DNA of 64,000 bases from the NCBI GenBank assembly GCA_019636335.1, contig JAHBXR010000002.1, positions 124,001 to 188,000 on the forward strand, written 5' to 3'. The notes under the pieces were generated by a model that saw only the letters and a program-made list of their open reading frames with translations, made no database searches and was not told where the DNA came from. Source of the DNA: Pirellulales bacterium. Its GTDB lineage: Bacteria; Planctomycetota; Planctomycetia; Pirellulales; JAEUIK01. The stretch's first letter is position 1; every line of letters begins with the position of its first letter. Of this stretch, positions 33,111-60,235 are shown in pieces. Both the position numbers and the translations under genes were made by a program.

Positions 33111-33851
33111 ATGGCCGATCGCTACTTTGTCGAGCACACGATCGATTCGGATCGCGTCGTGCTGGGGCCCCCCGAGGGGCATCACCTCGCGCGGGTGATG
33201 CGGGCCAAGCCGGGCGATGCCGTCACCTTGTTTGATGGCAGCGGTGCGGAATTCGACGCCTCGGTCGCGCGGGTCGCACGCGACGAGGTCGAACTGACGA
33301 TCCACACCCGCCGCGAGATCGACCGAGAGTTGCCGCTACGGCTCACGCTGGCCGTGGCCCTGCCCAAGGGGGACCGCCAGAAATGGCTGGTCGAGAAGTG
33401 CGTCGAGTTGGGCGTCTCGTCGATCGTTCCTTTGTGGACCGAACGGGGCGTGGCGCAGCCGGCCGACTCGGCATTGGCGCGCCTGAGACGCGCCGCGATC
33501 GAAGCGACCAAGCAATGCGGTCGGAATCGGCTGCTCGAGATTGCCGAACCGCGCCCGTGGAGCGAATTTGCCGCGCGCGATGTACCAGAATCGTTGCGGC
33601 TCATCGCGCAGCCCGAGGCCACGGCTTCCGTCGCAGCCGTTTGGCGCGACAGGCTGGAACGGACGGGCGCCGCGCCGCGCGAGGTGTGCGTTGCCGTCGG
33701 CCCCGAAGGGGGATTCAGCGACGCCGAGTTCGCGGCGGCAGTCGAACATGGCTGGCAAGGCGTTGCGCTCGGCACGCGCATTCTGCGCGTGGAAACGGCC
33801 TGCCTGACGCTCGCGGCGACCCTCGGGGCGCTCGCGGACGACGCACGCTAG
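33111..33851 (+). CDS. rsmE: 16S rRNA (uracil-N3)-methyltransferase RsmE
   Basis: From the ATG at 33111 the protein has 246 residues. RsmE methylates U1498 of 16S rRNA at N3. The N-terminal PUA-like domain has GPPEGHHLARVMRAKPGD, and the SPOUT domain has the QKWLVEKCVELGV segment, EATKQCGRNRLLEI, the knot segment VCVAVGPEGGFSDAE and the final LGTRILRVETACLTL. All are diagnostic. The open frame extends upstream into the ATPase divergent region but the start is set by family length. A hairpin-rich repeat begins right after its stop codon. Confidence 0.95.
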   Translation: MADRYFVEHTIDSDRVVLGPPEGHHLARVMRAKPGDAVTLFDGSGAEFDASVARVARDEVELTIHTRREIDRELPLRLTLAVALPKGDRQKWLVEKCVELGVSSIVPLWTERGVAQPADSALARLRRAAIEATKQCGRNRLLEIAEPRPWSEFAARDVPESLRLIAQPEATASVAAVWRDRLERTGAAPREVCVAVGPEGGFSDAEFAAAVEHGWQGVALGTRILRVETACLTLAATLGALADDAR

Positions 33852-33972
33852 CAGTCCGTTGAAAAACTCAACGGACTGCGACATCGCAGGGATGCGATGA
33901 CAAAATAGCGACGTATGTCGTTCTTTTGCGAGCCGTGCGGAGCTTTGCTCCTCACTTGGCGAGGTTGCTAAG
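33852..33972. repeat. 121-bp hairpin-rich repeat, copy 1
   Basis: This element begins directly after the rsmE stop codon. It matches 41803-41923 at 115 of 121 positions by eye. It folds into three consecutive hairpins: CAGTCCGTTGA / TCAACGGACTG with loop AAAAC, CATCGCA / TGCGATG around GGGA, and GCGGAGC / GCTCCTC (one mismatch in this copy) around TTT. It could act as a terminator-like end of rsmE. A REP-like or MITE-like mobile element, or a small structured RNA, is possible. Confidence 0.85.
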
Positions 33973-38337: not shown

Positions 38338-38410
38338 AACCCGAAGCGTAAGCGAGGGGCTTCTTGGAGAGAACGTCGATCGAGGAATCGCCTCGCTGAC
38401 GCTTCGGGTT
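38338..38410. repeat. Terminal-inverted-repeat element, copy A
   Basis: The ends AACCCGAAGCGTAAGCGAGG (38338-38357) and CCTCGCTGACGCTTCGGGTT (38391-38410) are inverted, with one mismatch over 20 bases. The 33-bp interior contains TTCTTGGA, also found in the copy at 60157-60235. It is placed between two genes, just before the Nif3 gene. No coding potential. Confidence 0.8.
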
Positions 38411-41243: not shown

Positions 41244-41802
41244 CGAAGAAACCATCCACGGATTTCACGAATTGGAAGAATGCCGCCGGAATAACCCGAA
41301 GCGTGAGTTTTGAAGTGGCCCGATACGATCCGGGGTTGGCGACGCGCGAAAATCCGCGGCCAGCGCGGTGGCCGAAAATCGACAGCGCGGCGAGATGTGC
41401 ATCCGTGTACAGTAGGTCAGGTACGCGCGTACCTGACACTTGTTCGACTCGGCCACGTCGAATGTCTTCGCCCTCGCGCGAGTGGTGCGCGATGGTGCGC
41501 GAACCAGCGCCTCCTAACGAGGCCACCAATACCCGCTTGAGAAGCACGATCGCCCAGCCTGGTCCTCGATATGCAAGTGCCCACCACCGCGCCGCTTGCA
41601 ACGAATCCGCTGCTCCTGGGGCGACCGAGTGGTCCGCCGTGGTGCGCGAGGGTGCGCGAACCAACACAATTTCATTCAAAAATCACAAACGCGAAGCGTC
41701 AGCGAGGAAAAACACCAGCGCGATGCAACAACAATTTTGTAGGTCAGGTACCCCGTACCTGACCTACGTGCCTTCCTCGCGGACGCTTCGCGCTTAGGAG
41801 AA
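41244..41802. repeat. Repeat-rich intergenic island
   Basis: This part of the 736-bp gap before valS holds several short repeats and no credible gene. An AACCCGAAGCGTGAG half-element is at 41293-41307. A 22-bp perfect palindrome built on GTCAGGTAC lies at 41416-41437. Near-duplicate GTGGTGCGCGA / GGTGCGCGAACCA stretches are at 41483-41505 and 41639-41663. The element at 41688-41795 is described separately. The 5' end resembles dispersed plain repeats (CCACGGATTTCACGAATT) known from many planctomycete genomes. Confidence 0.6.
41688..41795. repeat. Terminal-inverted-repeat element, copy B, with nested palindrome
   Basis: The ends AACGCGAAGCGTCAGCGAGG (41688-41707) and CCTCGCGGACGCTTCGCGCTT (41775-41795) are imperfect inverted repeats of the same family as 38338-38410 and 60157-60235. 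Nested inside is a 13-bp perfect inverted repeat GTAGGTCAGGTAC (41739-41751) and GTACCTGACCTAC (41755-41767) with a 3-base loop. The nested arm repeats the sequence at 41413-41425. No coding potential. Confidence 0.7.
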
Positions 41803-41923
41803 CAGTCCGTTGAAAAACTCAACGGACTGCGACATCGCAGGGATGCGATGACAAAACAGCGATGTAAGTCGTTATTTTGCGAGCCGTGCGGAGCTTTGCT
41901 CCGCACTTGGCGAGGTTGATAAG
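41803..41923. repeat. 121-bp hairpin-rich repeat, copy 2
   Basis: Second copy of the element at 33852-33972, in the same orientation, with 6 differences over 121 bases. In this copy the third hairpin (GCGGAGC / GCTCCGC around TTT) is perfect, which suggests that structure is conserved. It lies 57 bp before the valS start codon, so it forms part of the valS leader, unlike copy 1, which lies behind rsmE. Confidence 0.85.
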
Positions 41924-60156: not shown

Positions 60157-60235
60157 CCCCACCCGAAGCGTCAGCGAGGGAGTTCTTGGATGGGGCATCG
60201 ATCAAAGTGCCTCCTCGCTGACGCTTCGGGTGGGG
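60157..60235. repeat. Terminal-inverted-repeat element, copy C
   Basis: The 23-bp arms at 60157-60179 and 60213-60235 are perfect inverted repeats; both contain ACCCGAAGCGTCAGCGAGG or its complement. The 33-bp interior contains TTCTTGGA as in copy A at 38338-38410. It lies 88 bp before the acyl-CoA dehydrogenase start. No coding potential. Confidence 0.85.

Follow-up and report, generated by a model that had tools for sequence, protein, structure and literature searches.

The two 121-bp repeats of the window (i.e. the whole stretch of 64,000 nucleotides analysed here, from a Pirellulales bacterium) almost certainly belong to a new family of MITE, a non-autonomous transposon of 149–151 bp. This assignment follows from terminal inverted repeats (TIRs), a 4-bp target duplication, empty sites, copy number, near-identical bursts and autonomous partners. 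Among the identities that a sequence-only reading had offered, it is thus the non-autonomous mobile element that these data support.

Two truncated copies in the window

Pairwise comparison of positions 33852–33972 and 41803–41923 confirms the earlier count of two repeats of equal length (121 bp) and orientation with 115 of 121 positions identical; the mismatches fall at element positions 55, 61, 65, 72, 101 and 117. Both copies fold with a stability well beyond that of dinucleotide shuffles on both strands (z −6.1 and −6.5). Four stem-loops are predicted in each, rather than the three first described, and complete copies elsewhere have a fifth that is absent from both. The right TIR and a clean duplication are also absent from both, and the unit is larger than 121 bp, the window copies being 3′-truncated members of the 149–151-bp element (Table 1).

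The positions relative to genes given by the sequence-only reading hold: the stop codon in the left flank of copy 1 ends an open reading frame that matches RsmE in NCBIfam, and 57 bp separate the end of copy 2 from the downstream ATG of a ValS-matching frame. So does its remark that coding potential is missing, as the element is short and its variation consists of stem-compensating changes and indels rather than codon-wise substitutions. In the valS leader (41691–41791), a palindrome TAGGTCAGGTACCCCGTACCTGACCTA (~41743–41763) is nested between GCGAAGCGTCAGCGAGG and an inverted near-copy of it, and the MITE comes immediately after them.

Table 1. Features of the two MITE copies in the window
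Feature	Position	Strand	Basis
Left flank CTAG, target site; TAG is the rsmE stop	33848–33851	+	Sequence; RsmE by NCBIfam; YTAR duplication shown on other copies
MITE copy 1, type A, without right-hand hairpin and right TIR	33852–33967	+	Comparison with complete copies
Copy 1 hairpin 1: left TIR and inverted copy	33852–33878	+	Predicted fold; covariation helix 1
Copy 1 hairpin 2	33882–33899	+	Predicted fold; covariation helices 2–3 (G008 rows misaligned by one base)
Copy 1 hairpin 3, most conserved part of the body	33901–33928	+	Predicted fold; covariation helix 4
Copy 1 hairpin 4	33932–33960	+	Predicted fold; covariation helices 5–6
CTAA, probable right-hand target copy (left is CTAG)	33968–33971	+	Sequence
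AGAA, possible decayed left target copy	41799–41802	+	Sequence
MITE copy 2, type A, right-hand truncation as in copy 1, valS leader	41803–41918	+	Covariance-model match C2:165803–165929
Copy 2 hairpin 1	41803–41829	+	Predicted fold
Copy 2 hairpin 2	41833–41850	+	Predicted fold
Copy 2 hairpin 3	41852–41879	+	Predicted fold
Copy 2 hairpin 4, upper stem perfect	41883–41911	+	Predicted fold
ATAA, possible right-hand target copy	41919–41922	+	Sequence

The complete element and its variants

The genome that contains the window (G000, a draft assembly of 6.4 Mb in 60 contigs) has at least 32 places that match the 121-bp element in BLASTN at E < 1e-9. About 24 complete copies are found among the matches listed, together with many deletion derivatives. 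The complete unit has five hairpins and TIRs of the CAGNCYGTTGAAAAA type, with CAGNCYGNTGAAAAA-type termini on both sides. Read 5′ to 3′, hairpin 1 consists of the left TIR CAGTCCGTTGA, a loop and an inverted copy; hairpins 2, 3 and 4 follow, then hairpin 5 (GTTGAAAAATGCC...GGCATTTTTCAAC), and finally the right TIR with the terminus CAACAGGCTG. Three subtypes defined by their ends share this body, i.e. type A (CAGTCCGTTGAAAAA), type B (CAGGCTGCTGAAAAA) and type C (CAGGCCGGGGAAGTAT), and one copy (L027) is a chimera of types C and A.

Deletion derivatives in this genome include solo 27-bp hairpins and copies that miss some of hairpins 2–4. Two short, imperfect repeats, GGTTG and GGCTG, flank hairpin 5, so that slippage between them offers a simple route by which it may have been lost from both window copies. 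Solo left hairpins with YTAG-like flanks (L077, L079, L086 and L087) are either minimal elements or extreme deletions. Type B copies (L009–L016 and L020) mostly have CTAT to the left of the left TIR and CTAG to the right of the right TIR, and in type B copies CTAG or ATAG also follows hairpin 1, as if this hairpin were a separate unit.

Target duplication and empty sites

The target duplication is 4 bp long and of the form NTAN, mostly YTAR. The first flanking base is the same on the left and right in 43 of 53 two-ended copies, compared with 21.6 expected (0 of 20,000 shuffles of the pairing). In G096, a genome with many near-identical copies, the entire left and right 4-mers are identical in 14 of 20 copies, compared with 4.4 expected (again 0 of 20,000 shuffles). 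The duplicated 4-mers there are CTAG, TTAG, CTAA, TTAA and TTAT, including the unusual pairs TTAT/TTAT and TTAA/TTAA. Flanking target duplications, one of the checks proposed earlier, are thus present.

Joined flanks of six G096 insertions were searched against the genus of that genome. One filled site (L152) reads GGCGCTTAT, the 149-bp element, then TTATGCGTTGG, and a single CGCTTATGCGTT stands in G020, G092 and G077—i.e. TTAT occurs once in the empty site of the sister species and twice in the filled site. At a second site (L159), G020 has one CTAG and no element. A third apparent empty site (L161, also against G020) has a poor junction alignment and is excluded from the evidence. The duplication and the empty sites show that the element is mobile.

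Insertions at gene ends

Copies often lie at gene ends, and 26 of the 79 element edges examined adjoin a stop codon that ends an open frame at least 100 codons long. The same is true of 43 of all 140 YTAR sites in the window, and a special preference for stop codons was rejected since the rate among the elements is not above that of YTAR sites in general. The neat fit to stop codons reflects the target sequence, which is YTAR. This GC-rich genome contains few CTAG sites (29 occurrences in the window versus ~210 predicted from base composition) and YTAR often coincides with stop codons, and the frequent gene-end insertions would follow from these two properties.

Distribution across Pirellulales

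A covariance model of the element (R1) was searched in 117 Pirellulales genomes, as the first reading had suggested, and 29 of them (about a quarter), from ten families, are positive, some through weak single matches. Bursts of near-identical copies, at least 26 in each genome, occur in G096 and G057. In a phylum-wide set of 294 genomes, 6 contain a match; two of these are Pirellulales, and the four outside the order match weakly. The strongest of these four (G294) has the layout in common, i.e. a TIR hairpin, inner hairpins and a TIR hairpin, and a different interior; this planctomycete element of the same layout (L194, G294:C141:2845–3026) lies directly after a TAG. An exact-core scan of a GTDB set returned one carrier, a Pirellulales MAG, and a plasmid collection returned zero matches to the element. 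One copy near the G096 type stands at the end of a stretch of a viral contig (IMGVR_UViG_2891333991_000001; L193, 11080–11262).

Autonomous partners and a candidate transposase

We sought the TIR together with YTAG in relatives within the order. Inverted TIR pairs 1.3–1.5 kb apart are found in G048, in G035 and in seven copies in G028, and all three elements encode transposases with DUF772 and DDE_Tnp_1 domains. In NCBIfam, the transposases of G048 and G035 exceed the threshold of an IS5-family model, and that of G028 matches an IS1182 model best, at a score under the threshold of the latter. A further autonomous element, with TTAA on both sides, is present in G077, which belongs to the genus of G096. 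The autonomous elements from these four genomes, whose closest known counterparts are IS1182-type and other insertion sequences with DUF772 and DDE_Tnp_1 domains, have the MITE-type TIR and a YTAG or TTAA duplication. For example, the end of the G028 element (CAGCCCGTTGAAAAATGCC) differs from the type A right end (CAGCCTGTTGAAAAATGCC) at one position, with 18 of 19 terminal bases in common. What sets these insertion sequences apart from the MITE is that they encode a transposase and have no hairpin body.

A single DUF772 match is present in the window's genome, within a decayed 1.1-kb element that has the MITE TIR and CTAG on both sides; this element carries a frameshift and is shorter than its relative in G028. 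Elements with matching ends thus exist both in relatives, as autonomous copies, and in the window's genome, as this decayed one. Since ends and target are shared, we infer that the MITE is probably mobilised in trans by an IS5/IS1182-type transposase with DUF772 and DDE_Tnp_1 domains. Such an enzyme would cut at the TIRs and insert the MITE at YTAR with a 4-bp stagger. As the one transposase of this type in the window's genome is broken, the copies there may now be immobile, or an active partner may be missing from the draft assembly. In G057, one of the two genomes with bursts, no DUF772 match was found. We also rejected a partner of IS701 type, which the YTAR target had suggested, as the window's genome has no DDE_5 (PF13546) transposase.

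Covariation of the hairpins and what may keep the fold

Covariation was examined in an alignment of 41 copies from the window's genome and six others, in which 22 of 46 predicted pairs have both-sided changes. After manual addition of hairpin 2, 93.4% of cells are paired, and both-sided changes are found in 25 pairs and 178 cells, compared with 17.1 and 53.6 in shuffled alignments (0 of 500), counts that are not independent because the copies are related by descent and in which hairpin 2 is under-counted, the G008 rows being one base out of register there. Shifting the structure by 1–3 columns abolishes the signal. All five hairpins covary, and the covariation that the first reading had proposed as a check is therefore present. 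As to its suggestion of a structured RNA, the fold is conserved, as the covariation indicates, and would, if it has a role, operate either in RNA or in single-stranded DNA; there is no Rfam match at the gathering score anywhere in the window.

What maintains the paired arms is the weakest step of the explanation. One possibility, which we regard as tentative, supplements the MITE reading rather than replacing it: the hairpin body may be a selected functional module that terminates or stabilises transcripts at gene ends from either side, making insertions tolerable, and the element may be kept for it. Compensatory changes in five hairpins kept across several families are consistent with this, as are the A-tract and T-tract arms around GC cores in hairpins 3 and 5, and some copies (L002, L011 and L148) lie where two frames converge, each of them ending at the target site. 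In paired columns, G-U outnumbers A-C by 32 to 16 column-by-lineage events, which favours the + strand weakly, in a test biased by structure prediction on that same strand. Against such a role, stop codons are not in excess at element edges (26 of 79, versus 31–35% of all YTAR/YTAG sites), and orientation shows no bias relative to abutting frames (12 left, 14 right). A simple consensus scan of the elements for intrinsic terminators also found none, by a rule that cannot recognise stems extending through the T-tract.

Mutation bias alone could produce a similar pattern. Template-switch correction is established in bacterial quasi-palindromes, and by copying one arm onto the other it could generate double changes without selection. 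The stems, those of the TIR hairpins included, are near-perfect inverted repeats, which is consistent with this process. However, G-U pairs, which correction would erase, are common and persistent (e.g. column pair 67–83 is G-U in 27 of 41 copies), and loops and spacers are also conserved. Mutation bias as the sole cause is rather unlikely, and we give somewhat more weight to selection on the fold, at transcript ends or in the course of transposition, than to mutational correction of palindromes.

Relation to other repeats

The MITE resembles REP, BIME and REPIN sequences with their RAYTs in consisting of extragenic palindromes, and other repeats in the window's genome are of the REP kind. That the element itself is of REP/REPIN type and moved by a Y1 (RAYT) transposase is very improbable, even though its palindromes adjoin a YTAG tetranucleotide, solo 27-bp hairpins exist, and the genome has four Y1_Tnp genes, one of them a REP-associated tyrosine transposase in NCBIfam. 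REP-type tags are a fixed GTAG or CGTC (PMC3733652), whereas here the tetranucleotide beside the palindrome is variable and duplicated as a real target duplication, and it is DDE elements that have the MITE's ends. Inspection of the four Y1 loci revealed other palindromes and none with MITE TIRs; an origin from RAYT/REP was rejected on this ground, and the earlier REP-like label falls with it.

The four Y1/RAYT-type genes (L090–L092 and L093, the last at G000:C3:317380–317751) each lie among their own repeats, so several REP/RAYT systems seem to coexist in this genome. The L093 gene is found amid TCAGGTAC/GTACCTGA palindromes that resemble the one in the valS leader. Two further inverted GCGAAGCGTCAGCGAGG pairs, ~50 bp apart and REPIN-like, are located at 38341–38407 and 60163–60229 of the window.

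A recent segmental duplication of a single locus, which the first reading had kept as the alternative should there be only two copies and no covariation, would fit two near-identical copies 8 kb apart and is of negligible probability, because similarity between the two ends at the element borders, bar scattered matches, dozens more copies occur in this and other genomes, and the hairpins covary.

Known MITEs and significance

ERIC, NEMIS/Correia, RUP and Nezha are short, structured, non-coding mobile repeats of bacteria, as is the Pirellulales MITE. To our knowledge they have other duplications and other IS partners. Some of them have been named as MITEs (PMC3733652). Among IS5-linked MITEs, BrickBuilt, MITE293 and MITE700 of P. 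gingivalis are non-coding, are present in many copies, have predicted internal stem-loops, and have TIRs that match IS5-family elements of the same genome (PMC4596501). The Pirellulales element is likewise non-coding and multicopy, with TIRs shared with IS5/IS1182-type elements and with internal stem-loops. BrickBuilt has tandem copies of a 23-nt repeat as its interior and duplications of variable length (PMC4596501), whereas the Pirellulales elements have a fixed series of five covarying hairpins as their body, a duplication of constant length (4 bp) and an order-wide distribution. For IS1272, a member of the IS1182 family, insertion into hairpins without duplication has been reported (PMC4923244), which also differs from the Pirellulales elements. 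In the open-access papers retrieved on planctomycete MITEs and IS1182-type MITEs, we found no description of this family.

The long-kept, covarying interior of five hairpins is the unusual feature of this family. It is conceivable, though rather doubtful, that the body is a functional nucleic-acid module selected across Pirellulales—e.g. a bidirectional element at transcript ends, or a fold that assists transposition—with the TIRs diversifying to follow different transposases. In practice, the family provides a repeat annotation for Pirellulales genomes, where copies lie in leaders and at gene ends. The MITE is order-wide, with demonstrable insertions and a candidate transposase, and its three TIR subtypes on one conserved, structured body form a natural series. 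It makes testable why some bacterial MITEs retain multi-hairpin interiors for long periods, i.e. through RNA function, transposition, or mutation bias.
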